Assembly: GCA_902803375.1 (NCBI GenBank)
Contig: CADCPN010000005.1
Location: 1-42,290 of the forward strand
Reading direction: 5' to 3'
Source: an uncultured Erysipelotrichaceae bacterium
Lineage (GTDB): Bacteria > Bacillota_I > Bacilli_A > RFN20 > CAG-826
DNA: 42,290 nt
Shown: positions 2,977-40,940 of the stretch, in pieces
How the letters are laid out: each line of letters opens with the position of its first letter
Position numbering within the stretch: position 1 is the stretch's first letter
Made by a program: the position numbers and the translations under genes
The notes under the pieces: model-generated
Database searches by the model: none
What the model was told of the DNA's origin: nothing
Seen by the model: the letters and a program-made list of their open reading frames with translations, nothing else

Positions 2977-3039
2977 TTCCTTTATCAAAAATGGCAATAT
3001 TGATAAAGAAGATGGATGATTCAAAGGCTGCTTTATCAA
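2977..3039. repeat. Downstream copy of the fic operator array
   Basis: Bases 2977-3010 are identical to 4252-4285 (34 of 34) on the other side of fic. The core is a palindrome, TTTATCAA-N11-TTGATAAA (2981-3007). A third half-site TTTATCAA at 3032-3039 overlaps the fic stop codon. The third half-site is 51 bases from the first in both flanks, although the spacer between differs. Confidence 0.9.
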
Positions 3040-4238
3040 AGACGGAAAGCGTCTTCGTTAAGGGAGTAATAGAGAGATTTGGAGATTTTCTCTTTTTTGA
3101 GGAGGCCCGCTCTGCTTAGGCTCGATAATGCCCTATCGATTGTGGCTTTGCCTTTGCCTAACTTAGCAGCGAGTTCGGTGGAGCTATAGCCATTAAAGGA
3201 GAAGACGCTTGGCGGAATAAGAACGATAAGCACTTCTTTGTCCCTGCTGGATAAGGAACCGCTCTTTTCGATTTGGCTTTGGAGAGAAGCCATCTTCGCC
3301 TTCGACTCTTCGATATAGGCGAGATTGTGGTCGATGCCTTCTTTCAATAACGAGAGAAAGGGGTAGACGAATGTGGAAAGGTCGCCGTGATTTCTGACGT
3401 CTTCGGTCTCCTCAAAGGCCTTGTAGTAGCGCGCCTTCTTCCTGGAGATCGCAGGAGATAGGCAGAAGCAGGAGGAAAGCTTTCCCTCCGTTAAGAAGAA
3501 AAGCGAAAGCAAATAACGACCGAGCCTGCCGTTACCATCATAGAAGGGGTGGGTGTACTCATAGATGAAGTGGAAGATCGCGGCCCTGATGAAGACGGGG
3601 ATGCTCTTTTCTTGGCAGATGGAGAGGGCGGTGGCGATGTTCGCCTGCAGCGTCGCCTCGCCATAAGGCGGCTTATGGTATTCCTTAACGCCATCGGTGA
3701 TGGAGACGCCTTTGGCCCGATATAGCTTTCCGTCTGGATAGTTTTCTTTCTCTATGCTTTGGAGAATCACCGAATCGTAGATTTGCCGGACTTCTTCGTT
3801 GGAGGTGGGGAAAGAGGGCTTATTCTCACTTAAAAGGGAGTCATAGCCTTTGGCAATGCTGATGACTTTGGAGTTGCTGGAGGATTTAGCTTCCAGCAAG
3901 GCATCTTGAACTTCCTTCTGTGTGGAATGAATGTTTTCCAATGAGTTGGTGGCGAGTATTTCCTCACATAGGCTATGGCGATAGAATGCCTGCTTCGCCT
4001 CCAAAGGGAGGGCGTTAAGCTCAGCGTTCAGCGTCCCGTCTTTTTCAGCGAGATCGACCAAAAGATTCGTTAGGCTTGGATCGAGGAACAGGAAAGACTG
4101 TTCTCCGTGAATAGAGAAATCGAAAGTCTCCGTGTACGGGGAATTCTTGCGCGCGCTTAAATATTCCTCAAATTCTTTTGGGGATAAGATAGCGAATTGG
4201 CGAAAGGTCGAAATGTATTTCCCGTTTTGCTTTTCCAT
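3036..4238 (-). CDS. Fic family protein with C-terminal winged helix (auto-inhibited AMPylase type)
   Basis: A 400-residue Fic/DOC protein. The Fic motif HPFYDGNGRLGRY lies near residue 230 and has all catalytic residues (His, Asp/Asn, Arg). At about residues 97-102 TNSLEN fits the inhibitory motif [S/T]xxxE[G/N], placing it in class II, where the Glu blocks ATP binding intramolecularly. Residues about 335-395 form a winged helix (STELAAKLGKGKATIDRALS). Such proteins transfer AMP to protein targets, and the HTH suggests DNA binding and self-regulation. The promoter has TATAAT at 4245-4250, six bases before the ATG, with no Shine-Dalgarno, so the mRNA looks leaderless. A palindromic operator covers the -35/spacer, and an identical 34-bp copy sits beyond the stop. 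No partner gene is adjacent. Confidence 0.92.
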   Translation of the reverse strand: MEKQNGKYISTFRQFAILSPKEFEEYLSARKNSPYTETFDFSIHGEQSFLFLDPSLTNLLVDLAEKDGTLNAELNALPLEAKQAFYRHSLCEEILATNSLENIHSTQKEVQDALLEAKSSSNSKVISIAKGYDSLLSENKPSFPTSNEEVRQIYDSVILQSIEKENYPDGKLYRAKGVSITDGVKEYHKPPYGEATLQANIATALSICQEKSIPVFIRAAIFHFIYEYTHPFYDGNGRLGRYLLSLFFLTEGKLSSCFCLSPAISRKKARYYKAFEETEDVRNHGDLSTFVYPFLSLLKEGIDHNLAYIEESKAKMASLQSQIEKSGSLSSRDKEVLIVLIPPSVFSFNGYSSTELAAKLGKGKATIDRALSSLSRAGLLKKEKISKSLYYSLNEDAFRL

Positions 4239-4361: not shown

Positions 4362-5288
4362 TTAGAAGACGTAAAGGTAGATGCCGATCCACATGAATAT
4401 GGCGGCGAGTAGGACGACGAGGTGCCAGATGAAATGGGCCACCGGCTTTTTCCTCAAGGCGGCGAAGGGAATCATGCCAAGCGTATAGGTGACGCCTCCC
4501 GCGATGATCCAAAGGAATAAGGGGAGGGTCTCATTGATCCAAGTAGGAATGAACATGATGGCGCTCCAGCCAATCACGAAATAGAGGGTGAAGTGAAGCC
4601 ATCTTAATCTGCCGGGGCCGAATATTGCGACGAAGGTGATGCCAGTGATGATAAGCGCCCAGACGGCCATGAAGAAGGCGATGCCCCAAGTCTCTCCTAA
4701 GACTCCGAATAAGGGGTGCTGCCCCATATAGAGAAGGTATAAAGGAGTGAGCGTCCCGCCGATCTCTAGATAGATGGAGGAGTAGTCGAAGCGGCGGAAG
4801 ATTCTCTTTACGGTCGATCCGCCTCTAAAGGCGTGATAGAGGCAGCTAAAAAGCATCTGGAAGAAGAAGCAGCATCCATAGATGATGGCGGCGGTCAAAC
4901 TCCAGCCATCGCGCGACTTCAAGACCATCAGGATAAGCGCGACTAGGCCAATGCCCGCGCCGAGGCCATGGCTTATGGAATTGCCGATCTCTTCCAATAG
5001 CCCTCTTCTAGGGGCTTCGTTCATCGCGGCATGACGCTTTCTCGCATCGACCTTATTCGCGTATTTCTGGGCCTTTAAAGGGGAGCGCAGCTCTAATTTC
5101 TTGATCTTGTAGCTATCTTTTAGGTCGCGGAGCTGCTCGCGTTTCTGGTCTTTGATCGCGTTCTTCGCGCGGATGTATTCCAAGTCTAAGGCATCGTATT
5201 CCTTCGCCAGCTCTTTGTATCTTTTCTTAGAAGGAACAACTTCAGTTGCCCCTTCGACTTTCTTCTTTTCTTCCATATAGTTCACCAT
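4362..5288 (-). CDS. Hemolysin III / PAQR family membrane protein with coiled-coil N-terminus
   Basis: A 308-residue protein in two parts. Residues 1 to about 95 are highly charged and coiled-coil-like (repeated K/E/R/D, e.g. KELAKEYDALDLEYIRAKN). The rest is a seven-helix Hly-III/PAQR domain with the conserved zinc-site signatures: ISHGLGA with the preceding EEIG (about 98-108), SCLYHAF (about 150), and HFIWHLVV near the C-terminus. Family members are membrane hydrolase-like proteins; a true hemolysin role is doubtful. Typical bacterial members are about 210 residues, so the coiled-coil N-terminus is extra and may mediate assembly. The ATG at 5288 has no clear Shine-Dalgarno; an ATG four codons later is an alternative. 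A near-palindrome lies directly upstream at 5291-5310. Confidence 0.88.
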   Translation of the reverse strand: MVNYMEEKKKVEGATEVVPSKKRYKELAKEYDALDLEYIRAKNAIKDQKREQLRDLKDSYKIKKLELRSPLKAQKYANKVDARKRHAAMNEAPRRGLLEEIGNSISHGLGAGIGLVALILMVLKSRDGWSLTAAIIYGCCFFFQMLFSCLYHAFRGGSTVKRIFRRFDYSSIYLEIGGTLTPLYLLYMGQHPLFGVLGETWGIAFFMAVWALIITGITFVAIFGPGRLRWLHFTLYFVIGWSAIMFIPTWINETLPLFLWIIAGGVTYTLGMIPFAALRKKPVAHFIWHLVVLLAAIFMWIGIYLYVF

Positions 5289-6151: not shown

Positions 6152-7435
6152 ATGGCCAAAGACAATAGCCAATTCACGTACAAAGCCAATGAAAGGGCAG
6201 GCGAATTCCTCCTTGCCAACGATTCCTCTCTCCCCGCCTACGCCGAGGTTTTCATTGACATCGATTCCCGTCTCAAGGGGATGAGTGAGATCGAGGAGGA
6301 TTCCCATACTTGCTTCTATCCTTCCACCTATGAGGAGGAAGAAGGGGAAAGGGTTGCCAGGGCCAACTATCGGAGGTCTGACTTCCTTCTCCCCGCCGCC
6401 ATCGTCGATGAGGAGACTTTCAAAGTCATCTCCTTCTTGCTGGTGGATAGAATCAACCATAACCGCGCCTTCGTCCTCTCCTATAAGACCCTTAAGGTCC
6501 TCTTCGCCATCTATAACGGCTGGAAGGTCGTGGAGGAAGTGCTCCCCGAATCTAGCGAAGTCTTCCTCGATGCCATCGGCATGAATGCCATTGCCGCCCC
6601 TACCTCTAGCTATTCTGCCCCGGTAAAGGCGGTTAAAAACCTTGGCTATGCCATAGCTCGCCCTAGCGAAGATGAAGAAGACGAAGAGGATGACGTCGAA
6701 ATCGAAGTCGCCCGCCCTGCCTTTGAGGCCTCCTCAAAAAAAGGCGTCCGCAACCTTGGCGTCTCCTTTGCCATCCGTAACGACGATGAAGAGGAAGAAG
6801 ATGACGACGACCTGGTAATACCCGTTGCCCGCCCCTCTTTCTCCGCCTCTTCTTCTAAGAAGCCAAGGAACCTCGATGATCCAAAGCCCTATGTCCATAA
6901 AAACAAAAGGAATGCGAGTATTGCCACCCCTTCCTTTACCCCAACTTCTTCTAGAAAGCCCCGCACCATCGCGGATGAGGAGCCTACCTTTGCTAAGCCT
7001 TCCCCCGTTATCGATAGCGAGGAAGAAGACGCCCCGCTAGAGATCAAAGTGCAAGCCCCGAAGTTCACCCCAGCCTCCCATAAGAAGCCGAGGAACCTTA
7101 ACGCTAGGCCGCTTTCCCCAAAGCCTTCTGCTGCCATAACTAAGGAAAAGACGGAGGGAGAGGCAGTCGATAGCAAAGCGAAGAAGCCTAAAAGCCTTAA
7201 CGCCAAACTCAATAATCCTAAGCTTGTGGAAAATAAGGCTGCTATGGAACAGGCAAAGCCCCTCGAGCAGCCAAAGAGCGGGGAAGAGAATAAGAAGAAA
7301 GGTGAAGAGGAAGACCTTAGCATTGATTTCTCTGGCTTCCGCAAATCCATCTCCGCTGGATTGGGCAGGCCCCTAACTAGAGAAGAAGAGCTTGAGCTGA
7401 TGTTTGGCTCCACCAGAAAGAAGAAAACCAAGTAA
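6152..7435 (+). CDS. Unknown protein with acidic tracts and repeated xPxF-SSKKPRNL-type motifs
   Basis: A 427-residue protein I do not recognise. Residues 1 to about 150 look like a folded alpha/beta domain. From there to about 360 the chain is low-complexity: acidic runs (EDEEDEEDDVEIE; NDDEEEEDDDD) alternate with a short basic repeat, seen as ARPAFEASSKKGVRNL, ARPSFSASSSKKPRNL, ATPSFTPTSSRKPRTI, APKFTPASHKKPRNL and weaker copies. The C-terminus has a last helix with REEELELMFG. This is the layout of a disordered tether with repeated peptide docking sites. The start has a strong AGGAGG (6139-6144). The stop overlaps the ATG of the Vsr-NUDIX gene (TAATG), so the two are coupled, which makes a DNA-repair or DNA-binding role conceivable. 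Function unknown. Confidence 0.85.
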   Translation: MAKDNSQFTYKANERAGEFLLANDSSLPAYAEVFIDIDSRLKGMSEIEEDSHTCFYPSTYEEEEGERVARANYRRSDFLLPAAIVDEETFKVISFLLVDRINHNRAFVLSYKTLKVLFAIYNGWKVVEEVLPESSEVFLDAIGMNAIAAPTSSYSAPVKAVKNLGYAIARPSEDEEDEEDDVEIEVARPAFEASSKKGVRNLGVSFAIRNDDEEEEDDDDLVIPVARPSFSASSSKKPRNLDDPKPYVHKNKRNASIATPSFTPTSSRKPRTIADEEPTFAKPSPVIDSEEEDAPLEIKVQAPKFTPASHKKPRNLNARPLSPKPSAAITKEKTEGEAVDSKAKKPKSLNAKLNNPKLVENKAAMEQAKPLEQPKSGEENKKKGEEEDLSIDFSGFRKSISAGLGRPLTREEELELMFGSTRKKKTK

Positions 7436-11959: not shown

Positions 11960-13198
11960 ATGGAAAACTTTGAAAAAGAATACGCGAAGCTTGGCATCGA
12001 TGTGAAAAAGGCCTTTGCCCGCGTTAGAAACATCCCCATCTCCGTCCATTGCTGGCAAGGCGATGACGTCCTCGGCTTCGAAGGCGTTTCCAAACTCGAA
12101 GGCGGCATCCAGACCACCGGCAATTACCTTGGCCGCGCCAGAACCCCGGAAGAACTATTCGCCGATATAGAGAAGTGCTTCGCCTATATGCCTGGCAAGA
12201 AGAGGCTGAACCTCCATGCCTGCTATGCGATCCTTGGCGAAGAGCAGGGCAAGGTCGACCGCGACCAGTACAAGTTTGAATACTTCAAGCCCTGGGTCGA
12301 TTTCGCCAAGCGCCTTGGCTTAGATGGCATCGACTTCAACCCGACCTTCTTCGCCCATCGCCGCGTTAAGGATAACCTTACCCTTTCCTCCCCGGATGAA
12401 GAAACCCGCAAATTCTGGGTCGAACACGGCAGACGCTCCCTGGAGATCGCCTCTAGGCTAGGCAAAGAGTTCGGCAAGCCCTGCTTCGTCAACATCTGGA
12501 TCCCCGACGGATTCAAAGACGTCCCGGCCGACCGGCTCACTCCGCGCCTTCGCCTTAAGAAGTCCCTCGATGAAATCATTGACTGGCCGGGATACGACAA
12601 AAAATTCGTCACCATCGGCGTCGAATCCAAAGTCTTCGGCATCGGCGTGGAATCCTGCACCGTCGGCAGCTCCGAGTTCTATCAGAATTACGCCGCCAGA
12701 AAAGGCATCTGCTGCTTGATGGATACGGGCCATTATCACCCGACCGAAGTCGTCTCCGATAAGATCCCCTCCCTTCTTTGCTTCTATGACCACATCGCCC
12801 TCCATGTCTCCCGCCCGGTGAGATGGGACAGCGACCACGTCATCATCTTCGATGACGAGCTAAAGGAAGTCGCCAAGGAGATCATCCGCAACAATGCCGA
12901 GGAGAAGATGATTATTGGCCTCGATTACTTCGACGCCTCCATTAACCGCCTGCTTGCCTGGACTACCGGCGAACGCTCGATGGAGAAGGCACTTCTTTAC
13001 GCTGCCCTTCTCCCGAATGAAGAGATGAAGAAGGCTCAGGATGAAGGAGACTTCACTAAGCTCCTCTATCTGCAGGAACACGCCAAGATGCTCCCCTTCG
13101 CCGATGCTTGGAACGCTTATCTAAAGGAACAGGGGCTGGAAGAGGATTACTATTCCCCGCTTAAGGAATACGAAGAGGAAGTCCTGCAGAAACGCTAA
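11960..13198 (+). CDS. rhaA: L-rhamnose isomerase
   Basis: A 412-residue enzyme converting L-rhamnose to L-rhamnulose, the first pathway step, with a divalent metal. The N-terminal ISVHCWQGDDVLGFEG segment is diagnostic for RhaA. Metal and substrate residues are in GIDFNPTFFAHRRVKDNLTL, NIWIPDGFKD, VGVESKVFGIGVES (here IGVESKVFGIGVESCTVGS), MDTGHYHPTEVVSDK and LHVSRPVRWDSDHV; all look intact. The ribosome binding site AAGGAGG sits at the end of rhaB. Length and motifs agree with the family. Confidence 0.96.
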   Translation: MENFEKEYAKLGIDVKKAFARVRNIPISVHCWQGDDVLGFEGVSKLEGGIQTTGNYLGRARTPEELFADIEKCFAYMPGKKRLNLHACYAILGEEQGKVDRDQYKFEYFKPWVDFAKRLGLDGIDFNPTFFAHRRVKDNLTLSSPDEETRKFWVEHGRRSLEIASRLGKEFGKPCFVNIWIPDGFKDVPADRLTPRLRLKKSLDEIIDWPGYDKKFVTIGVESKVFGIGVESCTVGSSEFYQNYAARKGICCLMDTGHYHPTEVVSDKIPSLLCFYDHIALHVSRPVRWDSDHVIIFDDELKEVAKEIIRNNAEEKMIIGLDYFDASINRLLAWTTGERSMEKALLYAALLPNEEMKKAQDEGDFTKLLYLQEHAKMLPFADAWNAYLKEQGLEEDYYSPLKEYEEEVLQKR

Positions 13199-13222
13199 TC
13201 ATCCATTTAAGGAATAAAAACC

Positions 13223-14086
13223 ATGAAAGACATTCTAGAATCCAGCTTCATTAAGGAGTTCTGCCGCCTCACCACCAATATGTATCGCCTTGGCTGGGAC
13301 GAGCGTAACGGCGGCAACGTCTCCTATCTTCTTAAGGAAGAGGAGCTGAAAGACTACCTCGACCTAACCAAGGTCATCCGCAAGATCCCCTTCGCTGGCG
13401 TTCACCCGACATCCTTCGATGCCACCCCGCTTGCAGGCAAGATCTTCCTTGTCACCGGCACTGGCAAATATTTCAAAAACGTTGAGCTGGACCCCAAGAA
13501 CAACCTCGGCATCGTCCGCATCGCCAATAATGGCAAAGAAGCCGAGCTTCTCTGGGGCTTTGAGGATGGCGGACGCTTCACCAGCGAATTCCCGGCCCAC
13601 ATGATGTCCCATATGGCCCGATTATCCGTCGACCCGAATAACCGCATCGTCATGCATTGCCATCCGACCAATCTCCTTGCGATGAGCTATTGCCATCCCC
13701 TCGATGAGGCTTCCTTCTCCCACACCCTTTGGGAGATGTCCACCGAATGCATCGTCGTCTTCCCGGAAGGCGTCGGCTGCCTCCCCTGGATGCTTTGCGG
13801 CACCGATACCATCGGCGAAGCCACCGCGGCGAAGATGAAGGACTTCCGCCTTGTCCTTTGGCCCTTCCATGGCATCTATGGCGCTGGCAAGGACATCGAT
13901 GAGGCGTTTGGCCTAATCGAGACCGCCGAGAAGGCCGCGAGTGTCTATAACGTCATTGGCTCCCGCCCGATCCTTCAGACCATCACTGAGGACGATATGG
14001 CGGAGCTCATTAGCCTCTTCAACCTTTCCCCGAGATGGGATTTCTTTAAGGAAGAGAAGTACCGTTCTCTTGCCAAGAAGAAGTGA
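13223..14086 (+). CDS. rhaD: Rhamnulose-1-phosphate aldolase
   Basis: A 287-residue class II aldolase that splits L-rhamnulose 1-phosphate into dihydroxyacetone phosphate and L-lactaldehyde. Family features: GWDERNGGNVSYLL near the N-terminus (phosphate loop), LVTGTGKYFKN, the zinc-ligand segment VMHCHPTNLLAMSY with paired His residues, and FHGIYGAGKDIDEAFGLIE with the third His. The end of the gene uses TGA, confirming the standard code. AAGGAAT precedes the ATG. It closes the operon before terminators at 14107 and 14161; no rhamnose transporter or RhaM is present in the cluster. Confidence 0.96.
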   Translation: MKDILESSFIKEFCRLTTNMYRLGWDERNGGNVSYLLKEEELKDYLDLTKVIRKIPFAGVHPTSFDATPLAGKIFLVTGTGKYFKNVELDPKNNLGIVRIANNGKEAELLWGFEDGGRFTSEFPAHMMSHMARLSVDPNNRIVMHCHPTNLLAMSYCHPLDEASFSHTLWEMSTECIVVFPEGVGCLPWMLCGTDTIGEATAAKMKDFRLVLWPFHGIYGAGKDIDEAFGLIETAEKAASVYNVIGSRPILQTITEDDMAELISLFNLSPRWDFFKEEKYRSLAKKK

Positions 14087-21056: not shown

Positions 21057-21128
21057 CATGCTTTTTGCACAAAACCAAATATTTTTTCTAGAGTGTTTTT
21101 AATGTGAATTCTTATATTCTTTTGTAAA

Positions 21129-21180
21129 CTTTTGGAAGAATATTGAAAAAAATGGAAGAATAATTGTAATTTTGGAAGAA
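21129..21180. repeat. Promoter iterons of the AlbA_2 gene (upstream copy)
   Basis: Three TGGAAGAA repeats recur at exactly 20-base intervals (blocks 21131-21140, 21151-21160, 21171-21180). Bases 21129-21164 are identical (36 of 36) to 22679-22714 beyond the gene. The third repeat lies between a -35 TTGTAA (21164-21169) and a -10 TACACT (21186-21191), a repressor position. Confidence 0.88.
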
Positions 21181-21191
21181 TAAATTACACT
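21164..21191 (+). promoter_or_regulatory. Promoter of the AlbA_2 gene
   Basis: -35 TTGTAA, 16-base spacer, -10 TACACT. The spacer carries the third TGGAAGAA repeat. Start would be near 21198, just before the GAGGAG ribosome binding site. Confidence 0.5.
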
Positions 21192-21213
21192 TATGGCAGA
21201 GGAGAAAGATTCT

Positions 21214-22638
21214 ATGGAAAATGAGAATTATCTAAAAACGTTAAAAGAAGGCCTTCAAATAGAACTAAAGGAATCAGGGAAAAAGATTCCTGATAGTCTT
21301 TACGAAACGTATTCTTCTTTTTCTAACACAAAAGGCGGAATCATTTATTTAGGCATTAAAGAAGGAAAAACAAACGATATCATTGGCGTCTCTAATCCCG
21401 AAGAACAAAAGAAAGCACTCATTTCTACCCTTCATTCAAAAAATAAGGCTAGTTATTGCGCTATTTCCGATCAAGACGTGCAAATAATAAATCTCGATGG
21501 GAAAAAGGTTCTTCGCTTTGCCGTTAAAGAAGCTCCTCTAGAAGCGAAACCCGTTTACCTCGATGGAAATTTGTCGAAATCTTACATCAGAATTGGGGAA
21601 GGAGACTTCCTGATGTCGGAAGATGAGATCGCTTCTCTCCTTATAAAGAAAAAAGGGGTTGGCTTTGATATGCTTCCAAACTCCCTTGATTTAGATGAGG
21701 CAAACCTCGACCAAGAATCCATAAAGGAATTCCGGAAGCAAATGAATGAAATCAATCCAGATAACGTTTTTAGAAATCTAAATGACCACGATTTTCTTTT
21801 GCGAGCGGGTGTTTTGACAAAAAACAACGGAAGAGAGGTGCTAAAAAATGGTGCCGTTCTATTTTTCGGAAATCAAAGTGATATTTCTCAAATTTGCCCG
21901 AATTATTTTCTAGATTACCAAGAAAACTTCTCTGGAAAAACAAGATGGGATAGAAGAATCGTTTCGGATGAAAAGAATTTCAATGCTAATTTATTCAATT
22001 TTTTCTGCTTGGTTCGCAAGAACCTGATTGAAAAACTGCCAAATCCTTTTAGGACTGATGGAATTAGCAACATCAATGGGAAGGACATTCAACGTTCTGT
22101 GATAGAAGGACTAGTCAATGCCATTACAAATTGTGATTTTTCTTCGCTGCCTGGAATCGTTATTAAGAAAACATATGAGAATATTACTTTTCTTAACTCC
22201 GGCGATATTCCTGTTGGTGTTAAACAAGCCATTTCTGGCGGAATCACGAACCCTCTTAACAAAAATATCATGAATTATTTCAGGCTTCTTCAAGTGTCCG
22301 ACAGAGCAGGCTCTGGCGTGCCAAGCATTTTTGAAATGTGCCGTTCTTATGGTTTTTTAACGCCAAGCCTGACAGTTGAAAATAGCCCAAAAAGGACGGT
22401 TCTTATCATTAATTTCACTCAATTAAACCAAGAAACGCCGCACTATAATGAGAAAAAGACAATATTGTCTTACTTGGTCGCACATCCAGAAGGTGCTTCT
22501 ACAGAAGAAATTTCTAAAATGATTGGATTGAAGAACTCTTCAACCACTCTGATCATTTCCGAACTCTTATTAATGAATCTTATTAAAACGAATGGCAAAA
22601 AAACGAAAGGCAAACGCTATTTCGCGGCCAATAATTAA
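21214..22638 (+). CDS. AlbA_2/Schlafen-type ATP-binding putative transcriptional regulator (COG2865)
   Basis: A 474-residue protein from the ATG at 21214, chosen because GAGGAG lies nine bases upstream; an ATG at 21193 would add 7 residues without a ribosome binding site. Domains: AlbA_2 (Schlafen-like) about residues 10-130, with IELKES and SFSNTKGGIIYLGI; a GHKL-like ATPase fragment (HATPase_c_4) about 290-390 with VIEGLVNAITNCD and VSDRAGSGVPSIFEM; a winged helix about 415-474 (GASTEEISKMIGLKNSSTT). Codon use is markedly more A/T-rich than neighbours, so it was probably acquired. It sits alone between iteron arrays that are perfect 36-bp direct repeats, likely binding sites of its own winged helix. 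The biochemical role of the family is unsettled: regulators, and possibly defence. Confidence 0.88.
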   Translation: MENENYLKTLKEGLQIELKESGKKIPDSLYETYSSFSNTKGGIIYLGIKEGKTNDIIGVSNPEEQKKALISTLHSKNKASYCAISDQDVQIINLDGKKVLRFAVKEAPLEAKPVYLDGNLSKSYIRIGEGDFLMSEDEIASLLIKKKGVGFDMLPNSLDLDEANLDQESIKEFRKQMNEINPDNVFRNLNDHDFLLRAGVLTKNNGREVLKNGAVLFFGNQSDISQICPNYFLDYQENFSGKTRWDRRIVSDEKNFNANLFNFFCLVRKNLIEKLPNPFRTDGISNINGKDIQRSVIEGLVNAITNCDFSSLPGIVIKKTYENITFLNSGDIPVGVKQAISGGITNPLNKNIMNYFRLLQVSDRAGSGVPSIFEMCRSYGFLTPSLTVENSPKRTVLIINFTQLNQETPHYNEKKTILSYLVAHPEGASTEEISKMIGLKNSSTTLIISELLLMNLIKTNGKKTKGKRYFAANN

Positions 22639-22665
22639 AAAGCGATATTTTCGGGATATTCTGAC

Positions 22666-22714
22666 ATTCTTCCAGAATCTTTTGGAAGAATATTGAAAAA
22701 AATGGAAGAATAAT
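22666..22714. repeat. Downstream copy of the AlbA_2 iterons
   Basis: 22679-22714 repeats 21129-21164 exactly over 36 bases, with two TGGAAGAA units at 20-base spacing. Directly before them ATTCTTCCA (22666-22674) is an inverted unit. There is no gene immediately downstream that this could drive. Confidence 0.88.
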
Positions 22715-23116
22715 AAAATTTTTTGTCCGCCCCCCTCCCGCTTAAAGGAGTTCCTGTTGAAAAAGAAAAAAGCGATTGGAACGATCGAAAGAGTCTAGTC
22801 GGACTTCAAGATCATCCTCAATGATGTCCCTCCTGGTTCTTTCTTTTTCCATTGAGCCGCTTTCGACCTCCCTTATCGGAGTTGGCTTCCTCGTTCGAGC
22901 TTTCCTCATCGACTTCTTCGGCTTGAAGAAGATAAACAAGTCTCCCCTTCCATTATGAGGAGACTGACCAGAAGCTTCTCATCGCTAATCGTTGCCTTGC
23001 CGAAAGGATGTTGCCCAGGGTAAAGATGAAGCTTCCAAAAGAAACGGAATCCGCTAAAGGATAGCCGCATTTGAAATAAGCAACATTTCCCAAAAGAAGG
23101 TGTTTTTCCCTCATGC
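22715..23116. other. Gene-free region with possible decayed minus-strand coding sequence
   Basis: About 400 bases with no credible intact gene. Reading the minus strand, protein-like pieces appear in different frames (for example YPLADSVSFGSFIFTLGN near 23010-23070, then KATISDEKLLVSLLIMEGE near 22950-23010, then EEVDEESSNEEANSDKGG near 22850-22920). This would fit a frameshifted dead gene, but I cannot name its family. Confidence 0.35.
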
Positions 23117-31677: not shown

Positions 31678-32385
31678 ATGAAAAAGAAGCAAAACATCTC
31701 AAATAAGCTGCTATTGGCTTTGACGATATTGTTCTGGGCAATCGCGATCGGCCTCGTTTTCATCCTTATCTTCATCGCGAATATCCTTTCTCCCTATGAC
31801 TTAGACCTAAACCTGCAGATCGGCATCGCCATGGGCATAGGGCTTCTCGCCCTCTTCTTATTGTTTTTCCCGCTTATCAGATGGGGCGATGATCTTTTCC
31901 TTTTGCTCACTGGCAAGGAAATGGAAAGCGAGAAATCCTTAAAAGTGATTACCGTTCCCGCCCCAAAAGAAGGGCTAACCAAGTTAGAGGGATTGGGGTT
32001 TACAAAGAAAGACTACGGCTATTCCTTATATACCGCTTCTTCCTTGGGAGAGGTTGAGTTGCTTTTAAAAGAAAGAAACGCCTTTAACCTAAAAGAAGAC
32101 CTCGAATCCGCAAGAAAAGAGGTCATGGGCATCCATAATGGCTATCAGGTCCTTGGCATCGTTATCCTGAAAATGGCGAGCCTAAAGGAAAGTGATGAGA
32201 AACTACTTCTAGACTACGCTAAGGAAGAGATCGAAAAAGAGCAGGTCGCTGAGCTTGCTGATCTCAATTGCCCCTTCTTCCTGCTAGAAAGCGAAGGCAA
32301 CTATCACCTGGTTAGCTATGGCAAACGAAAAGTCCCCTTATACAGAATGGCATGCCAATTCGTAAAGGGGACTTTAGCGGATTAG
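31678..32385 (+). CDS. Membrane-anchored hypothetical protein
   Basis: A 235-residue protein with two N-terminal transmembrane helices (LLLALTILFWAIAIGLVFIL and GIAMGIGLLALFLLFFPLI) and a cytosolic domain of about 150 residues that is mixed alpha/beta and rich in Lys/Glu. No motif is recognised. The start at 31678 (MKKKQNIS) is a good membrane-protein start; frames opening upstream would overlap the divergent amylase gene. It is AT-balanced like its neighbours. Its stop codon overlaps that of the convergent giant helicase gene. No terminator seen. Confidence 0.78.
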   Translation: MKKKQNISNKLLLALTILFWAIAIGLVFILIFIANILSPYDLDLNLQIGIAMGIGLLALFLLFFPLIRWGDDLFLLLTGKEMESEKSLKVITVPAPKEGLTKLEGLGFTKKDYGYSLYTASSLGEVELLLKERNAFNLKEDLESARKEVMGIHNGYQVLGIVILKMASLKESDEKLLLDYAKEEIEKEQVAELADLNCPFFLLESEGNYHLVSYGKRKVPLYRMACQFVKGTLAD

Positions 32386-35300
32386 ATTCTTCCTTCGGCC
32401 AAGCCGCGGGCATAGATCTTGCTTAAGATATCGCGATTCTTCTTTGTGAGGGTCGCGTTTTTATATTCAAACGCCTCAAGGGTGGCCTTATATAGGTCAT
32501 CCTCAGAGAGGTCGCCTTGCAGCTGCTTGATCTCCTTCATCGCGAATTCGATCTCGGCAGGGGCGATATCGGCGAGGTCTCTATCGCCGGCGGTGCGGAA
32601 ATAGGTGAGGTGCCTATCCGCGGATTCCGCCCAATAGAAGCCATCCCTGTCGATGCATTGGGGCTGGAAGACCCTCATCTTCGCCTTTAGGGCGAGCTCT
32701 GCCCTATTGGAGAGGACCTTAAGGTCCATCCTTTCCTTGATGCGGGACTTGATGGTGTTGAAGCTGACGGGTCCTTCGGCAAGCAAGATCTCCTGGATGT
32801 CCTCAAGGACTTCTAACGAGAAGCCGGTGCTTGCGGAATAGGAGACGCCGCGAAGCTTCTCAAACGGGACCTTTTCATAGGCGACGCCGCAGAGGTGGAT
32901 CTCTATGTCTTTTGGCTCAATGACGGGGGAGAGCTTCTCCTCCTCTTTGGCGTAGGGGGCATCGATGGCGGCGAGTATCCTGTTAATCGTGCCTTTCTTA
33001 TCCTTGAAGTAGCCCGCCGCATAGACGGCGATGGTCTTCCAATGGAGGCGGTTAAGGACGGTAGGCTCCACGTATTGCCTATCGCGAAGGGAGGAGTCGC
33101 CCATCTCCCTATCGTCAAGCAAGACGCCTAGAACATAGGAGCCGGAGTTAGGATCGAGGATGGCGAGGTCGACTTTGGAAGAGGACTCGCCGACTTCGTA
33201 ATCGACTTTATATCCTAGCTTCTCCAGGTCTAAGCCGATGAACTTGGCGACGCCTTTGCCTTGCTTTCTCTTTTCTTCCTCATGATTAAGTTCATTGCCT
33301 TGGGCGTAGGAAAGGAAGTGCTTTAGGCAGAGGGCGCCGGCTTTTTCGATATATTCATCCGCGTCGAAGTCGTGGTCGGTGATCGTGGAGATGACATACA
33401 TCTTCTCCTTAGAGCGGGAGACTGCGACGTTGAGCCTTCTTTCGCCTCCTGGAGAAAGAAGCGGGCCGGCGATGGAGGCTTTGCCGCTAGAGTTCTTCCG
33501 GAAGCCGATGGAGAGGATGATGATGTCCCGCTCATCGCCTTGGACGTTTTCTAGGGATTTGACAAACGGGGGCTCTGAGCTGATTTCGGTGGCTTTGGCA
33601 ACCTTCCTGGCGAGTTCTTTGTTCTTGTCTAGAAGGGTGGACAAGGCATCGTCGACGGCATCTTTCTGCTTCATGTTGAAGACGATGATGCCGACGGATT
33701 TATTCTCCGTCTTTGGGTTCATATAGATGGAGGCGAACCTCTTGAGGATAGCCTCTAGCTCAGTCTTGGAGAGTGCGCTATTGGCCTTATTCTCAGGCAG
33801 CACCACCTTCTCGAACTCGATGGCCTTATCCTTCGCGTTGGGGGAAGGGAAGGTATGGAGGCCGCCTTCATAGAAGTTCTTGTTGGAGAAATCGATGAGG
33901 GATTCATGGCGGGAACGGTAATGGTAGCTTAGGCGAATAGTTGGGAAGTCGATATCGATGCACTCATCAAGCAATGAGGGGGCATCCTGGTAATCTAAGT
34001 CATCGCCAGAATAGTCGATCTCGGCGCCGAAATAGTTGCTTGGCGGCATCTGCTGCGGGTCGCCGGCCACGATGAGGGAGTTGCCTCTAGCGATGGGTCC
34101 GACGGCTTCGTGGACCGGGATCTGTGAGGCTTCATCAAAGATGACGAGGTCAAATTTCCTTGGCTTTTTGCCAGACTCTTCTGAGACGTTGAGGTATTGG
34201 GCTGCCGATAGAGGCGACATCAAGAAGCAGGGGAAATACATCCTGATGAGGTCGTCGTATTTGCTTAGCGCATCGCGGATCGAGATGCCTCTGCCGCCAC
34301 TAGCGATGATCTTCTTTAGCTGCCCCACGGGGGAGGAAGACTTGTAATCGACCTTGCCCTGGATCAGCTTCTCGGTAAGGCGAGAGGAGACCGTCTCGAT
34401 GATGAGGTTATCGTAATCGCGGATGAGGGAGCGGTACTTCTCGACGTCCGCATTGAAGGAAGAAGGATTAAAGAAGTTGATGCTAGGATCATTGAAGTAA
34501 GCCTTGATGAGGTTTTTTGCAACCGTGTAGTTATAGGAGTTCCTCACCTCTTCGATGCTTAGCTCGCCTAGCTCATACCCGCGCAAGAACGGGGATAAGA
34601 CTAGTTGCTTAGCCTCCAGGGCTTTCTGGTTGACGAGGCAGATGTCGGGGAGGAGCTGGACGTTTTCTTCCTGGCTTCCGTAATCAAGAAGGGCGGAGAT
34701 TTCCTCTAGGGCAATCTCGTCTTTGGGGGAGAATAGCTCCTTCTTAAGCTTGTATTTGCTAGAGAATTCCTTTTCGACACTCTTTAGGGCGGAAAGCTTT
34801 GGCGCAATCTTTTCTAGCATTGCCTTCACTAGAGAGGGACGTTCGGTTGAAAGCTTGGCGAAATAGAGCTTCGGGCTAGAGGCGTGAGGGAAAAGGGAAA
34901 GCTCGTTTAGCTTTTTGGCAAACTCGATGGTGGAGAGGAAAGCGCTATGGATAGAAGCGTAGCTTAGCACATGTTCCCTTAAGGAGAATGGGAGATAGGC
35001 CTCAAGCTTAGCGGCGATATCCTTTACTTCCTTATCAAGGGATTGATAGGTCGCGAGTAGGTTAAGGTCGGGGATGAGGTTCTTGCCCTTTTCTTTCTTA
35101 TCGTCAAGAAGATATGGGGCAATCGCGTCCTTCGCCTTCTTCTTTGCGACGAGGCGGGCAAAGATATTGGGGCTAGATTCAATCGCGAACTTTAGCCCTT
35201 CTATGTCAAAGCCTTCCGGGATCTTCTCGAAGTCGAGGTGGGCGCCATAGGAATTAAGAAGCTCGGCGAGCTCTTGGACGGTCGCGAAATCCTCTTCTAG

Positions 35301-38300
35301 GCTTATGGGGATAGAAAGGTAGCTATCGATCTTCTCTAGATATAGGTCTTCGCTGATGGCCTTCTGCGAGAGCTCTAGGAACAAGGAGATGGCTTCCTGG
35401 CAGTTAGGCAAGCCTAATCCAGAGGACTTCTCTAGCTCTAGATAGGAAGAAAGGAAGGCGTCTAGGGCCGATTTGTAGGCGATGAAGTCGGCTTTGGCCG
35501 CATCGATGTTGGAGAAGTTGAAATAATCGATTCCCAGCATCTTAAACGGGCTATCCGCGTAGCCGGGGATCGAGGATTCAAATTCCTCTAGGTCCTTAAA
35601 GAAACTAAGGGACTTCCTATAGTCTTCTTTCGATAGGCCAAGGATATAGCCCTCAGGAGTCTCGACAAACTGCACGTGCCCCTCGTTTTGCATATCGAGC
35701 AATATCGCGTCATAGAAGCTTAGGCAATAATCATCGGCCTTATGCATCGCGTCGAGGGTTCTTTGAATCGATGCCTTCTTTTCTTGCAGCTCGTTGATGG
35801 TCTTGGCGAAGTCTTCGTTTTCTTTGCTCGGCCCTAGCTTCATCGATTCGCCTAGGCTTGCAAAGAAATCGGCCTTATTGGCTTTGGAGGAATGCAACTC
35901 TAGCGCGAATCTGCCGAGAGAAATCTTGTTCAAGCGTTCGGCGACGACGTCGAGGGCCGCCTTCTTCTCCGCGACGAAAAGCACGGTTTTGCCATGATAG
36001 AAGGCATTGACGATCATGTTGACGATGGTCTGGCTCTTTCCGGTTCCTGGAGGCCCGTCGAGGATAAAGGATTTGCCCTCACCCGCGGCCAGGATGGCTT
36101 TTAGCTGGGTGGAATCGTAAGGAAGAGGCGCGGCGAAGTCGCGGTAATTCTCTAGCTCATCGATGTTCTCAACGTCTTTTAAAGGGTCGTCGTTGATGAG
36201 GGAGCGCCCAGCGAGAATCGAGGCTACGACCTTGTTCTTCTTCAGCTCCTCCTTACGCTTCCTCATATCCATCCACATGATGTAATGGGAGAAGGTTAGG
36301 TTAGCGACGAAGAAGGTGGATTCATCGAGCTGGATGTCTTCTTCGCAGGAGGATTTGAAGGTGTGGACGATGTCGAGGTAGGCATCGCTAGATGAGACGT
36401 TATACAAAGAGGAGACGTCGAAGTCAGGATGCTCAAGCTTGTAATACTCGAAGAAGGTCTTGTTGAGCATGACCTCGTCATAGTCGTATTTAAGGGTGTA
36501 GGTGCTTGCCCCCATCTTGTCTTTGGTAATGGAGATAGGCAAGACCATGAACGGCGCGCAGCCCTTGATGGGGGTGCTGCCGCTGCCTTTGCGGTTGAAG
36601 GTTAGGACGCCCATGCATAGATATAGGGTGCTGGCGCCAGTCTCTTCGATGGCGCTTTGGCTCTTCTTCAAGATGCCGCGGAACGACCTTTCGTAGCCGA
36701 AGGCGTAGGCTTTGTCTTTATCCGCGGCCTCAGGCAAGGAAGAGAGGTCGCAGCGGTGGATTGCATCCGACTGCTCCTTGGCGGAACCTTCTCGCTTCAT
36801 CTCCACGAAGGAGATCTTGATGGGCTTATCTTCGGCAAGGAGATCGGGAAGGTCTTCTTTGACGAGCTTCACGAAGTTAACGGGGGAGAATGGGAAAACG
36901 ACGAGGGGATTCTTCTCGGTGAGGTCCAGCAGCTTATTCTCCCAGAAGGTGAACCTATCCTTGCTCTGCTCCTTTGCCACATTGATGTATTTGTGGTTAA
37001 GGATTGGGGAAAGATCGTCTCGAGAGAGCAATTCGCGGCGATCAGAGTCGCTGATGCCCTGCTCGCTGCCATAGGTTGGAAGCGGGGTGAAGATTCCCTG
37101 ATGCGCGGAATAGACGTCGATTGCCATGAAGAAGCGGCCCTGGTACATCCTGGTCCTTTCGATGGCATCGGCGGCGGCCTGCACGAATCCGATGCCAGCG
37201 AAAGAGGCGAAATCGACGGCGTCGAAAACGACGATATCCTGCTTGCCGGATACGCGGTTATTGAAGGCGCCGACTTTGCCAAGGCTCGCGTTTTCAAAAT
37301 GGGAGTTCTCGTTGAGGAAGACGCCGACGAAGGCGTGGTCATCGGTGATGATGAGGATCGGGTGGAATCCGATTTCCTCCAATGCGGCGCAAGCGAGGAT
37401 GGAAAGATCAAGGCAAGTGCCCTTCTTATCCAATAGGACCTGCTTTGGGAGGCGGATCCTGCTCCATCTGGAGCTGGTCGCGGCGGGATTTTGATAAGCG
37501 ATTCCCTGCTTTGCCAAAGCAAGGTAGATGGCCTCGATCTCGGAGAGGGTATCCTCTAAGTCTTTGTTTTGATAGGCGACGAATGGCCTATTTCCGTTTT
37601 CTTCCCTGGCGAACAGGGTGAATTTTTCAACCTCTTCTTCTAATGGGGTAACGAATTTGGCATAGAGCCGGTAGTCGCGGTCGATGACTTTATTGGGCTG
37701 GCCAAGCGGCAAGAGATTGAATTTGGTCTCGGCGGAATTTAGCAGCACCCCATTGCTGGAGACGAGGTCGGCTTTGATGGCGCAGGGCAAAGATTCATCA
37801 AGTTTATAGAGGGCATCCTGATCGACTTCGATGAAGGGCATGCGAAGATTCATCTCTTCGCCTTTGTCTATACAGGGAATGAAGAGATCGTTGGCCTTTA
37901 GGATGCCGGTAGCAAAGCTAAAGTGAATAGTTAGGCTGCGGATAGGCTTAGCGGAAGTGTTCTTAAGGGTTAGCTTCTTCACGAAGGAATAACCGGTGTT
38001 TTCGGCCTTGTCTTTGATCTTGCTTTGGCAATCGACCTGATAGGTGACGTAGCTAAAGGAATCATCGATCACAAAGGTGAGCTTAAGGTCTTCGGGGGAG
38101 ACTTCGGGGATGGGGTCAGCCTCGGGTTCTGTGGGTGCATATTCCTCATCTTTCTTCTCTTCGATGATCGGCTCGACCTCGATGATGTTGGAGTTGGCCT
38201 CTTCTGCAAGGCTTTGCTCGTCCTCGACTTCGGCGATTGCGAATTCAGAGATGCGGGCAAGCTGTTTGTCGGCTTTGGTCTTCATGCTCTCGGGAAGTTC

Positions 38301-38528
38301 GATGTGGCCGACTCTGGAAGTGACTTGCTTCAAGGAGGAATAAGGCTTTGGCAAGCAAGATTGCGGCAAGAAAGCAACGCGCAAGACGAGCATGTCTTCC
38401 TGCCGGTCTTCCACGCGGACGACGTCTCCGGAAAGCAAAGACTCATCCGCGCATCTATATAGGGATTCGCCCACTCCTTCGAGGGGCGTTAAACTTAGGA
38501 CAAAATAGACGGGGATAGTGGTATTCAT
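32382..38528 (-). CDS. Giant transglutaminase-like / DUF4011 / SF1 helicase / nuclease protein
   Basis: 2048 residues, multi-domain, COG1112-like. Order: N-terminal beta region and acidic linker (to about 150); beta-sandwich about 150-285; transglutaminase/cysteine-protease-like fold about 300-430 with GTCLDLSILACAALEEIGFH (Cys about 370) and DDHAFVGV (His about 398); DUF4011 start FWENKLLDLTEKNPLVVF (about 530); SF1 helicase with Walker A DGPPGTGKSQT (about 823), Walker B VIFDEASQIP (about 1465), GDPQQMPPS, SYHYRSRHESLI, VQGDERDIIILS and NVAVSRSKEK; a PD-(D/E)XK-like (MTES_1575 type) nuclease about 1760-1880 with YEVGESSSKVDLAILD; a C-terminal DUF3320-like region. Such proteins are candidate nucleic-acid surveillance or phage-defence factors; that role is inferred. 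No Shine-Dalgarno precedes the ATG. Confidence 0.9.
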   Translation of the reverse strand: MNTTIPVYFVLSLTPLEGVGESLYRCADESLLSGDVVRVEDRQEDMLVLRVAFLPQSCLPKPYSSLKQVTSRVGHIELPESMKTKADKQLARISEFAIAEVEDEQSLAEEANSNIIEVEPIIEEKKDEEYAPTEPEADPIPEVSPEDLKLTFVIDDSFSYVTYQVDCQSKIKDKAENTGYSFVKKLTLKNTSAKPIRSLTIHFSFATGILKANDLFIPCIDKGEEMNLRMPFIEVDQDALYKLDESLPCAIKADLVSSNGVLLNSAETKFNLLPLGQPNKVIDRDYRLYAKFVTPLEEEVEKFTLFAREENGNRPFVAYQNKDLEDTLSEIEAIYLALAKQGIAYQNPAATSSRWSRIRLPKQVLLDKKGTCLDLSILACAALEEIGFHPILIITDDHAFVGVFLNENSHFENASLGKVGAFNNRVSGKQDIVVFDAVDFASFAGIGFVQAAADAIERTRMYQGRFFMAIDVYSAHQGIFTPLPTYGSEQGISDSDRRELLSRDDLSPILNHKYINVAKEQSKDRFTFWENKLLDLTEKNPLVVFPFSPVNFVKLVKEDLPDLLAEDKPIKISFVEMKREGSAKEQSDAIHRCDLSSLPEAADKDKAYAFGYERSFRGILKKSQSAIEETGASTLYLCMGVLTFNRKGSGSTPIKGCAPFMVLPISITKDKMGASTYTLKYDYDEVMLNKTFFEYYKLEHPDFDVSSLYNVSSSDAYLDIVHTFKSSCEEDIQLDESTFFVANLTFSHYIMWMDMRKRKEELKKNKVVASILAGRSLINDDPLKDVENIDELENYRDFAAPLPYDSTQLKAILAAGEGKSFILDGPPGTGKSQTIVNMIVNAFYHGKTVLFVAEKKAALDVVAERLNKISLGRFALELHSSKANKADFFASLGESMKLGPSKENEDFAKTINELQEKKASIQRTLDAMHKADDYCLSFYDAILLDMQNEGHVQFVETPEGYILGLSKEDYRKSLSFFKDLEEFESSIPGYADSPFKMLGIDYFNFSNIDAAKADFIAYKSALDAFLSSYLELEKSSGLGLPNCQEAISLFLELSQKAISEDLYLEKIDSYLSIPISLEEDFATVQELAELLNSYGAHLDFEKIPEGFDIEGLKFAIESSPNIFARLVAKKKAKDAIAPYLLDDKKEKGKNLIPDLNLLATYQSLDKEVKDIAAKLEAYLPFSLREHVLSYASIHSAFLSTIEFAKKLNELSLFPHASSPKLYFAKLSTERPSLVKAMLEKIAPKLSALKSVEKEFSSKYKLKKELFSPKDEIALEEISALLDYGSQEENVQLLPDICLVNQKALEAKQLVLSPFLRGYELGELSIEEVRNSYNYTVAKNLIKAYFNDPSINFFNPSSFNADVEKYRSLIRDYDNLIIETVSSRLTEKLIQGKVDYKSSSPVGQLKKIIASGGRGISIRDALSKYDDLIRMYFPCFLMSPLSAAQYLNVSEESGKKPRKFDLVIFDEASQIPVHEAVGPIARGNSLIVAGDPQQMPPSNYFGAEIDYSGDDLDYQDAPSLLDECIDIDFPTIRLSYHYRSRHESLIDFSNKNFYEGGLHTFPSPNAKDKAIEFEKVVLPENKANSALSKTELEAILKRFASIYMNPKTENKSVGIIVFNMKQKDAVDDALSTLLDKNKELARKVAKATEISSEPPFVKSLENVQGDERDIIILSIGFRKNSSGKASIAGPLLSPGGERRLNVAVSRSKEKMYVISTITDHDFDADEYIEKAGALCLKHFLSYAQGNELNHEEEKRKQGKGVAKFIGLDLEKLGYKVDYEVGESSSKVDLAILDPNSGSYVLGVLLDDREMGDSSLRDRQYVEPTVLNRLHWKTIAVYAAGYFKDKKGTINRILAAIDAPYAKEEEKLSPVIEPKDIEIHLCGVAYEKVPFEKLRGVSYSASTGFSLEVLEDIQEILLAEGPVSFNTIKSRIKERMDLKVLSNRAELALKAKMRVFQPQCIDRDGFYWAESADRHLTYFRTAGDRDLADIAPAEIEFAMKEIKQLQGDLSEDDLYKATLEAFEYKNATLTKKNRDILSKIYARGLAEGRI

Positions 38529-38873: not shown

Positions 38874-39695
38874 ATGAGCAGCGCATCTGACTACACCCTT
38901 TTTGGCGTTGATTTCGGCTCGAATGCCGGGCAACGGGAATTGATTAGGCAAATCAACGAGGACTGCAACCGCAAGCCTGTGGTCTTCTGCAATGGCGCCG
39001 CTGGCACGGGAAAGACCTTCGCTGCGCTAGCCGCTGGGCTCTCCCTTGTCCGTGGCAAAGGCGCTAAGAAGAAATATAAAACCTTATATTACGTACGTGA
39101 GCCTGTTGAGGTTGGCCATCGCCTTGGCTACTTAAAGGGCACGGAAGAAGATAAACTCGCCCCTTACCTCGGCCCATTGCTAGATAACTACAATCACCTC
39201 ATGAACAAAGCCAGGAAGGATGGCATCATTCCTGATACCGTCAAGCAGCCTAGGAGGGTGAAACGTGGCCTCGATGATGAGGACATGTTGCCAAAGGCCT
39301 ATCAGAAGCTCCCTTCTGATATCGTTCCACTTGCTCCTGAATTCATGCGAGGACGCAGCTTTGAAGATTGCGTCATCATCGTGGATGAGGCGCAGAACAT
39401 GACCATCGATGAGCTTCAGACGATGGTTACCCGAATCGGTGCCTTTACCAAGATGATCATCATTGGCTCACCTAACCAGATCGATATTCCTGGAGCGACG
39501 GTTGATGACAACGCCTTCCTCACTGCGTATAAAATTCTTCAGCCAACCGGATTGGTCGGTTATGTGGAATTGGACGAGCCGATGCGTTCTGGTTTCTGCG
39601 CCGAATTCGATGCCAAGTTCGTGGAATACAAACGACAATTGGCGCTTAAGAAAGCGGCGGAAAAAGAAGCTAGGAAACAACTGGAAGAGGCATAG
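38874..39695 (+). CDS. PhoH family P-loop ATPase
   Basis: A 273-residue PhoH-like protein. Walker A is NGAAGTGKTFAAL (about residues 40-52), Walker B CVIIVDEAQNMTIDEL (about 165-180), and the sensor region TMVTRIGAFTKMIIIGSPNQ is characteristic. PhoH domains are related to SF1 helicases and are linked to RNA metabolism. There is no PIN or KH domain attached, and the usual ybeY neighbour is absent; the C-terminus is a short Lys/Glu-rich helix. The start has TAGGAGATAGCT before ATG, a clear Shine-Dalgarno, with TATACT upstream at about 38839-38844. A terminator follows. Confidence 0.92.
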   Translation: MSSASDYTLFGVDFGSNAGQRELIRQINEDCNRKPVVFCNGAAGTGKTFAALAAGLSLVRGKGAKKKYKTLYYVREPVEVGHRLGYLKGTEEDKLAPYLGPLLDNYNHLMNKARKDGIIPDTVKQPRRVKRGLDDEDMLPKAYQKLPSDIVPLAPEFMRGRSFEDCVIIVDEAQNMTIDELQTMVTRIGAFTKMIIIGSPNQIDIPGATVDDNAFLTAYKILQPTGLVGYVELDEPMRSGFCAEFDAKFVEYKRQLALKKAAEKEARKQLEEA

Positions 39696-39702
39696 AGAAT
39701 CA

Positions 39703-39737
39703 AGACTGACTTAGGAAACTTAGCCAGTCTTTTTTTT
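39703..39737 (+). terminator. Terminator of phoH-like gene
   Basis: AGACTG, imperfect inner stem with GAAA loop, CAGTCT, then a run of T. Confidence 0.75.
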
Positions 39738-40166
39738 GCGCTTTCTCGCTTGCCTGCTTAAGGGAATTTGCAATAGATCTGCAATAGAAAAACAGAGAGA
39801 AACGCTGAATGGAAGGCTGATGGAAAAATTACTTTAATCTTATCGAGATCTACTAGCTGCGTTTGCTGAAAGAAATAATGTCAGAAAACAGTGTTAAGAA
39901 GCTTTTAATTAATGAGAAATTAAGAAAACATTTCAGCTTTTAAAATTGTTAATAGAAAAGTCAAAATTCTTTGCCACAATTCTTAACCCCTTTGTTAAGC
40001 GAAAGAATAAAGGGGTTTTTGTTTTACTTGGGTGATCTAGCGCCGAATTGTTACCTTGACCGTTTTCACATAAAAAGGAGCGGCGAGAAAACGCTCATAT
40101 TGGGGCCGGCTAAATAAAAAGAAAGCTAAGAGATAGAGATTTTGAAAAAAAGGCAAAACATAAAAA
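39738..40166. other. Gene-free region with an orphan plus-strand terminator
   Basis: There is no credible protein gene here; the longest possibilities are about 20 codons. At 39985-40024 a strong terminator (AACCCCTTT, 15-base loop, AAAGGGGTT, TTTGTTTT) has no gene of its own on the plus strand, since the phoH-like gene already ends at 39737. A small RNA between about 39780 and 40024 would explain it. A further hairpin, GAGCG-N9-CGCTC, lies near 40079-40097. Confidence 0.4.
39985..40024 (+). terminator. Orphan terminator
   Basis: Stem AACCCCTTT (39985-39993) with AAAGGGGTT (40009-40017), followed by TTTGTTTT. The upstream transcript is unknown. Confidence 0.65.
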
Positions 40167-40231
40167 TAGCGAAAGAATGTATCAATATGAAAATAATAGT
40201 GATAATATTAACTTAGCGAAAGAAAGTATCA
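40167..40231. repeat. Duplicated operator-like repeat upstream of the AbiEi-like gene
   Basis: TAGCGAAAGAATGTATCA (40167-40184) and TAGCGAAAGAAAGTATCA (40214-40231) differ at one base and are 47 bases apart. The second copy begins a GTATC-A7-GATAC inverted repeat. The position just before the gene suggests binding by the encoded winged-helix protein. Confidence 0.65.
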
Positions 40232-40256
40232 AAAAAAGATACATACATGAGCAAAG

Positions 40257-40940
40257 ATGATATTAAAAAGCAAAGACTTAGAAAAAAGGTATAAAACGTA
40301 CTCAAATATCCGAACCAAGGTTGGAAGAGAGGTTGAAAAAGGGGTTTTAATCCCTCTTAAAAAAGGAATCTACACCGATGATCCCATGGCCGAACCTTTT
40401 GTTTTTGCTAATGAAATCTGCTCGCCTTCCTATGTTTCTTTTGAGAGCGCCCTAGCTCTTCATGGCTTGATTCCAAAGAAAAGTGGCAAAGTCTTCTCCG
40501 CTACAAAATCAAAATCTCATACTAAGGAATTCGTCAATCAATTCGGTAAATTCTTTTACCAAGATGTTCCGGCGAAAGTCTATGCTAAAGCAAATGCCTA
40601 TTACGATGCTGGAACCTATGTTGTTTTAGTTGCTAGCAAAGAGAAAGCCATTTGCGATTGTCTATACAGAGGCGAGGTTATTCTTTCTATTCGCGAACTT
40701 AAAAAATACCTTTTTCAAACCCTAGGAATCATCGAAGAGGAATTTTGGAAACTAAATCTTCAGCAAATGCTTTCTCTTTGTCCATATTACAGATCGAGAT
40801 CGCTGAATACGCTCCAGAAGTTTATTGAGAAAAAACTAGGCATCGCCCATAAGGGTAAGAAGAAAAAGAAGAAATCTATCTCCAAGGCCGATGACGCTTG
40901 GGAAGCACTGGCTAAGTTCCGTAATAAGTATGGCGAATAA
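40257..40940 (+). CDS. AbiEi-like antitoxin-family protein without a partner toxin
   Basis: A 227-residue protein. The N-terminal 60 residues form the winged helix of AbiEi-type antitoxins, ending in LIPLKKGIYTDDP; then ANEICSPSYVSFESALALHGLIPKK is the family hallmark, and the middle contains VVLVASKEKAICDCLY. The C-terminus is a lysine-rich tail (GKKKKKKSISK). In type IV systems AbiEi neutralises the nucleotidyltransferase toxin AbiEii and represses its own promoter. No AbiEii gene follows; a terminator at 40957 ends the transcript, so this is an orphan, perhaps a repurposed regulator. Base composition is AT-rich, suggesting acquisition. No strong Shine-Dalgarno is seen. Confidence 0.85.
   Translation: MILKSKDLEKRYKTYSNIRTKVGREVEKGVLIPLKKGIYTDDPMAEPFVFANEICSPSYVSFESALALHGLIPKKSGKVFSATKSKSHTKEFVNQFGKFFYQDVPAKVYAKANAYYDAGTYVVLVASKEKAICDCLYRGEVILSIRELKKYLFQTLGIIEEEFWKLNLQQMLSLCPYYRSRSLNTLQKFIEKKLGIAHKGKKKKKKSISKADDAWEALAKFRNKYGE

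Follow-up and report, generated by a model that had tools for sequence, protein, structure and literature searches.

The window, by which we mean the whole stretch of DNA that was analysed (42,290 nucleotides from an uncultured Erysipelotrichaceae bacterium), carries on its forward strand a gene at 21193..22638 for a 481-aa protein with an AlbA_2 (Schlafen) domain, a GHKL ATPase-like region, and a winged helix. The assignment rests on the open reading frame, Pfam matches, a structure model, and dN/dS. A likelier start codon than that at 21193 is the ATG at 21214, which has a Shine-Dalgarno sequence, GAGGAG, at 21199-21204. Comparison of the gene with its homologues gave a dN/dS of ~0.12-0.15, showing that it is under purifying selection. 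The initial annotation, made from the sequence alone, had described the gene as more AT-rich than its neighbours, and this held: its GC is 0.37 (GC3 0.36) vs 0.50 for the rest of the window, and the neighbouring alpha-galactosidase gene has a GC3 of 0.68. A further AT-rich region at 39500-41500 (GC 0.37-0.39) contains a 227-aa ORF without a match (40257-40940) and adjoins an IS1595-like transposase fragment (41550-42236).

The AlbA_2 protein and its bracketing arrays

The AlbA_2/Schlafen domain (residues 19-139; 21247..21609, + strand) matched PF04326 (SLFN_AlbA_2) with E=1.3e-15 and contains three acidic residues, E19, E24, and E57, which are conserved at 95-98% in 57 homologues. A GHKL/HATPase_c_4 match (PF13749, above cut-off) covers residues 329-397 (22177..22383, + strand), and just ahead of it is the GHKL N-box, E305-x3-N309, in which E305 and N309 are invariant. 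The C-terminal winged helix (residues ~416-477; 22438..22623, + strand), seen in MarR/Csa3-type matches and in the structure model, is the presumed reader of the iterons described below. A profile built from 25 relatives matched 2kyy, 3lmm, structures of SLFN8/11/12/14, and MarR/Csa3-type winged helices. For the AlphaFold2 model (mean pLDDT 80), the best fold match was 3lmm over 355 residues; despite a Z of 21 the rmsd was 13.5, indicating that the domains are placed differently. The winged helix of the model matched MarR/IclR winged helices with Z ~10-12 and TtgV-DNA with Z 11.7.

Previous work on rat SLFN13 (Schlafen13) has described an acidic RNase site with catalytic E205/E210 (PMC5862951). 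The spacing of E19/E24 is that of E205/E210, and we take E57 to be the equivalent of D248 of SLFN13, although this equivalence is assumed. All three acidic nuclease-site residues are present. The protein is predicted to be of an RNase-like, DNA-binding Schlafen type; the RNase activity itself is inferred. According to a 2026 survey (PMC12839542), which also cites a preprint about bacterial Schlafens and defence against phages, the combination of Schlafen RNase, minimal histidine kinase, and wHTH occurs widely in the neighbourhood of BREX systems. These bacterial Schlafen-minimal histidine-kinase ATPase-wHTH proteins (BREX-linked, PMC12839542; 3lmm; phrog_12156) have the same three domains in the same order as the protein of the window, their acidic residues are conserved too, and the best fold match, 3lmm, is among them. 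In contrast to the BREX-linked family, the gene of the window is solitary and is bracketed by two operator-like arrays.

The bracketing consists of a 36-bp direct repeat without mismatch, whose copies lie at 21129-21164 and 22679-22714 (both + strand) and enclose this one gene. In a segment of this composition, the chance expectation for such pairs is ~7e-15. The repeat is composed of TGGAAGAAT units spaced by exactly 20 bp, three of them in the upstream array (21108..21181, + strand; units at 21133, 21153, and 21173) and two in the downstream array (22658..22723, + strand; units at 22683 and 22703), which also has a perfect inverted unit at 22666-22674. The initial annotation had reported the repeats, the unit counts, and the inverted unit, all of which held; in addition, a degenerate counterpart of the inverted unit lies at the same offset in front of the upstream array, so that the similarity of the two arrays runs to 66 bp (83%; 21108-21173 / 22658-22723). 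The period of the upstream array was significant relative to shuffles (p=0.01). A third downstream unit, found in the genomes G194 and G195 discussed below, is missing from the downstream array of the window.

The third upstream unit had also been placed in the spacer of a promoter. Its position held, as it lies between TTGTAA (21164-21169) and TACACT (21186-21191), the elements of a putative promoter (TTGTAA-16-TACACT; 21164..21191, + strand) that is simply read from the sequence. This promoter is weak, matching the consensus at 8/12 positions, and a promoter scan with a cut of 9 consensus positions did not list it.

Searches by pattern only revealed no other place in the genome of the window with 20-bp-spaced arrays of the TGGAAGAAT unit. 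Among 224 genomes of the family, 20-bp-spaced GGAAGAAT arrays were present only in the three that hold this gene. Because the array was found only together with the gene, we rejected the idea of a dispersed repeat.

Helically phased iterons across the family

We compared the regions upstream of 36 relatives from the same bacterial family with those of 55 alpha-galactosidase and S66 peptidase loci from the genus of the window, which served as controls. A significant upstream self-repeat was present at 25 of the 36 AlbA_2 loci vs 4 of the 55 controls. The lags at the AlbA_2 loci were 20 (n=9), 21 (n=6), and 41 (n=5), with 10, 12, 23, 31, and 42 seen once each; nearly all are multiples of the DNA turn, that is, the iterons are helically phased. 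Control lags (8, 8, 9, and 45) included no helical lag. About one third of the 36 sister loci had no significant upstream iterons with this statistic; the start codons of the relatives were guessed by rule, which lowers its sensitivity.

The sequence of the unit is specific to the gene or clade, as in AAAAGTGAACGAACT, TTAGATAGAT, TCAGCAGATTA, and TTGGCAAACT. Phased iterons (~10-12 or 22 bp) also precede distant members on a Lactobacillus iners plasmid, on a Staphylococcus plasmid, in satellite phages, and in prophages. On the L. iners plasmid pC0094A1 (L167:3428-3967), ~20 AATCGTG units at 11 bp occur in repeated 87-bp modules before the gene, and two more such units follow it. Similarity of the HTH region did not covary with iteron similarity (partial rank correlation -0.07, p 0.87), and given this negative coevolution test, iteron binding by the winged helix remains an inference. 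The family-wide rule, that the gene lies beside its own helically phased iterons, predicts where many as yet uncharacterised proteins bind and opens their regulation to direct tests.

At 12 loci, namely that of the window, those of its two 96% homologues, and nine diverged others, we found a matching downstream array in the same orientation. The best scores for a repeat shared by the upstream and downstream regions were 27-58 at these bracketed loci, compared to <=12 in the 55 controls. The unit sequences of bracketed loci mostly differ (TTGCTCTAA at L026/L029; CAAGAATA at L014/L098/L100; TTTCAAAAGATT at L008; AATTTGAAAGTTTT at L031), and several arrays carry one inverted unit at the same end. 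On a tree of 60 proteins the bracketed state needs seven changes, six of which are forced by well-supported branches. Bracketing arrays are kept in the diverged syntenic orthologues L098/L100 (84-88%), and the downstream array is kept in L101/L103 (81%) as well. The protein family is already known; neither bracketing nor solo arrays around these genes were described in the open-access PMC literature that we searched.

Transfer between genera and the states of related sites

Two genomes of another genus in the same family, RUG13633 (G195, locus L032) and RUG13722 (G194, locus L033), carry the same segment at 95.1% nucleotide identity in other surroundings. Homology with the window stops at 21060 and 22725, which delimits a single-gene cassette (21060..22725, + strand) of leader, upstream array, gene, and downstream array. 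The AlbA_2 protein is 96% identical across the genera, whereas a host aminopeptidase of the window is only 60% identical in G194. We conclude that the segment crossed between bacterial genera as a unit, which supports the initial annotation in its claim of a transferred single-gene cassette. The associated claim of binding arrays at both ends held only in part: on the left, the transferred unit extends ~70 bp beyond the first iteron and thus does not end exactly at the array, and binding is only inferred. Within the genus of the window, the alpha-galactosidase and LD-carboxypeptidase neighbours are found together without the gene, for example in G012.

No clear target site duplication was seen at the junctions in the window, and the nearest empty site (G012) is too diverged. 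In a search of the window, L032, and L033 for tRNA genes near the points of insertion, ARAGORN found none, although tRNA-3'-like fragments border the G194 copy. The AlbA_2 gene is alone in 21060-22725, with no transposase, integrase, or other recombinase gene; terminal inverted repeats are absent, and the arrays are in direct orientation at all bracketed loci. A classical transposon, an integron cassette, and an integrase element were ruled out, since recombinase genes and inverted ends are lacking and the gene comes with a promoter region of its own. At locus L105 (G194 contig 12), a 2-kb AlbA_2 block lies between 158-bp direct repeats (83.5%; 4447-4603 and 6551-6708) that contain tRNA-3'-end-like sequence, and KAP NTPase-like gene fragments are found beside its arrays.

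A search for loci with one repeat and no gene was successful in G194 and G030. At a second place on contig 12 of G194 (12742-13322), an upstream flank, a single three-unit array, and a downstream flank follow one another without the gene. The upstream flank is orthologous to that of the occupied site in G195 (90.5% over 1.57 kb), and the downstream flank matches for ~75 bp beyond the array. An independent case is contig 3 of G030, where a single TTGCTCTAA array at ~50,037 lacks the gene and the sequences on its two sides share 89% and 85% identity with the flanks of the occupied G023 site. At these two orthologous sites, then, a solo array is the alternative to the array-gene-array arrangement. 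Most of the genomes are draft MAGs; because the arrays are shorter than typical reads, assembly collapse is unlikely, and the solo array of G030 sits in a 206-kb contig. Relatives of L021 and L101 have empty sites that lack any array, and related sites thus occur in three states: empty, occupied, and solo. Such sites provide a natural setting in which to study how recombination between operator arrays adds or removes a single gene.

In G029, a version of the cassette lies on the opposite side of the neighbouring gene relative to G023, and the block of homology spans array to array. No array remnant was found at either of the alternative positions. At L115 and L118 (G001, G023, and G030), AlbA_2 genes occupy two adjacent insertion points that flank one conserved gene, which suggests a hotspot.

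Arrays at a single locus tend to share their variants: G000 has ATATTG in both arrays, and G194/G195 have C at the last position in both. The two arrays of L101 are identical over 39 bp, and the orthologous array of G200 differs. The resemblance of arrays within a locus exceeds the expectation from orthologues, with few informative sites. At L014, the present gene is preceded by what is left of a tandem copy, namely the final 194 bp of the gene together with an array. The homogenised arrays, the solo sites, and the L014 remnant fit recombination between arrays.

A favoured reading and its rivals

The reading that we favour, with moderate confidence, is that of an autoregulated Schlafen-type gene that is spread in a single-gene cassette and disappears through recombination between its flanking operator arrays. 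The winged helix would most likely bind cooperatively, along one face of the DNA, to the iterons with their 20-bp phasing, an inference for which there are no binding data. The upstream array overlaps the putative promoter and would act as an autoregulatory operator; repression is likewise inferred, without expression data. The most economical account of such autoregulation is that it would restrain a potentially toxic effector. A second operator copy behind the gene, in the same orientation and with a role that is inferred, would have come from tandem duplication or insertion. The two arrays would then recombine, staying alike and at times deleting the gene to leave one solo array, in the way that a solo LTR remains after loss of an LTR element. 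The outcomes show that the cassette inserts at new places, although the route of insertion is inferred. Against this reading, solo arrays could stem from deletion in situ with no role in mobility, neither a recombinase nor a target duplication was found, HTH similarity does not track iteron similarity, and roughly a third of sister loci lack significant iterons.

Aspects of the cassette resemble known systems. The head-to-tail wHTH oligomers of BldC, RdfS, and Cox also combine a winged helix with phased repeats (PMC11963761), and for BldC and RdfS about one protomer per DNA turn has been reported (PMC11963761). However, these are small one-domain proteins, some of them directionality factors beside an integrase, and there is no integrase at the cassette of the window. 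In an LTR element, as here, direct repeats flank the unit and a single repeat persists after loss, but the cassette has no reverse transcriptase or integrase and the repeats that flank it are short arrays resembling operators. The Rep/operator systems of iteron plasmids have 20-bp iterons and an adjacent gene for a winged-helix protein, as here; unlike these, the protein of the window is not a Rep and its gene is chromosomal.

It remains possible that the operator was duplicated without any mobility. The arrays would then be binding sites only, with the downstream copy serving a DNA loop or insulation of the repressed gene, and transfer and loss would come about by homologous recombination and deletion of the ordinary kind, with no particular link to the arrays. 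The placement of helically phased arrays in promoter regions, the retention of bracketing arrays in L098/L100 and of the downstream array in L101/L103, and the left end of the transferred segment outside the array all agree with this explanation. Nevertheless, in two lineages orthologous sites have solo arrays from which the gene is precisely missing, and this, together with the boundaries of the G029/G023 cassette at arrays, goes beyond incidental deletion.

At the other extreme, the cassette might be a self-mobile minimal element, in which the AlbA_2-GHKL-wHTH protein pairs two oriented arrays and drives excision and insertion without a known recombinase; solo arrays would then be scars across these Erysipelotrichaceae-like genomes. 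The empty, occupied, and solo states, the varying cassette positions in related genomes, and the orientation of the arrays, several of which carry a single inverted unit at the same end, speak for it. We consider it unlikely, given the absence of a known recombinase motif and of a visible target duplication, the match of the AlbA_2 acidic residues to the Schlafen13 RNase site (PMC5862951), and the fact that simple RecA-type recombination, acting on identical arrays, accounts for the losses. Least plausible of all is that the arrays are replication or partition iterons and the gene a plasmid-derived initiator. Iterons of ~20 bp beside a winged-helix gene do resemble iteron plasmids, and the L. 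iners plasmid homologue has ~20 upstream units, but the Schlafen/GHKL/wHTH domains are not those of a Rep initiator, and homologues lie in type I restriction operons and beside a satellite-phage integrase.

Returning to the favoured reading, the restrained effector is likely to be a defence or stress protein, a role in defence being inferred without phage-protection data. The cassette bears on two open questions, namely how Schlafen-type defence proteins are silenced and how defence genes spread one at a time. Distant homologues are found inside type I restriction operons and others adjoin the integrase of streptococcal satellite phages; the gene of the window stands alone, without an adjacent defence operon, and PADLOC gave only a partial match to a pAgo profile. 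At 10 kb from the cassette, 32382-38528 (- strand) is likely a defence gene, encoding a 2048-aa protein that combines DUF4011, AAA_11/12 helicase, and MTES_1575 nuclease domains. A single-sequence search of viral contigs yielded no close relatives, and a profile search of such contigs yielded 29 distant ones. In IMG/VR 2630968485_000003 (L206; ~3001-4206), an AlbA_2 gene lies between ~114-bp direct repeats whose sequence appears to code for the beginning of an integrase; the arrangement looks like an insertion of the gene after an integrase 5' end that had been duplicated.
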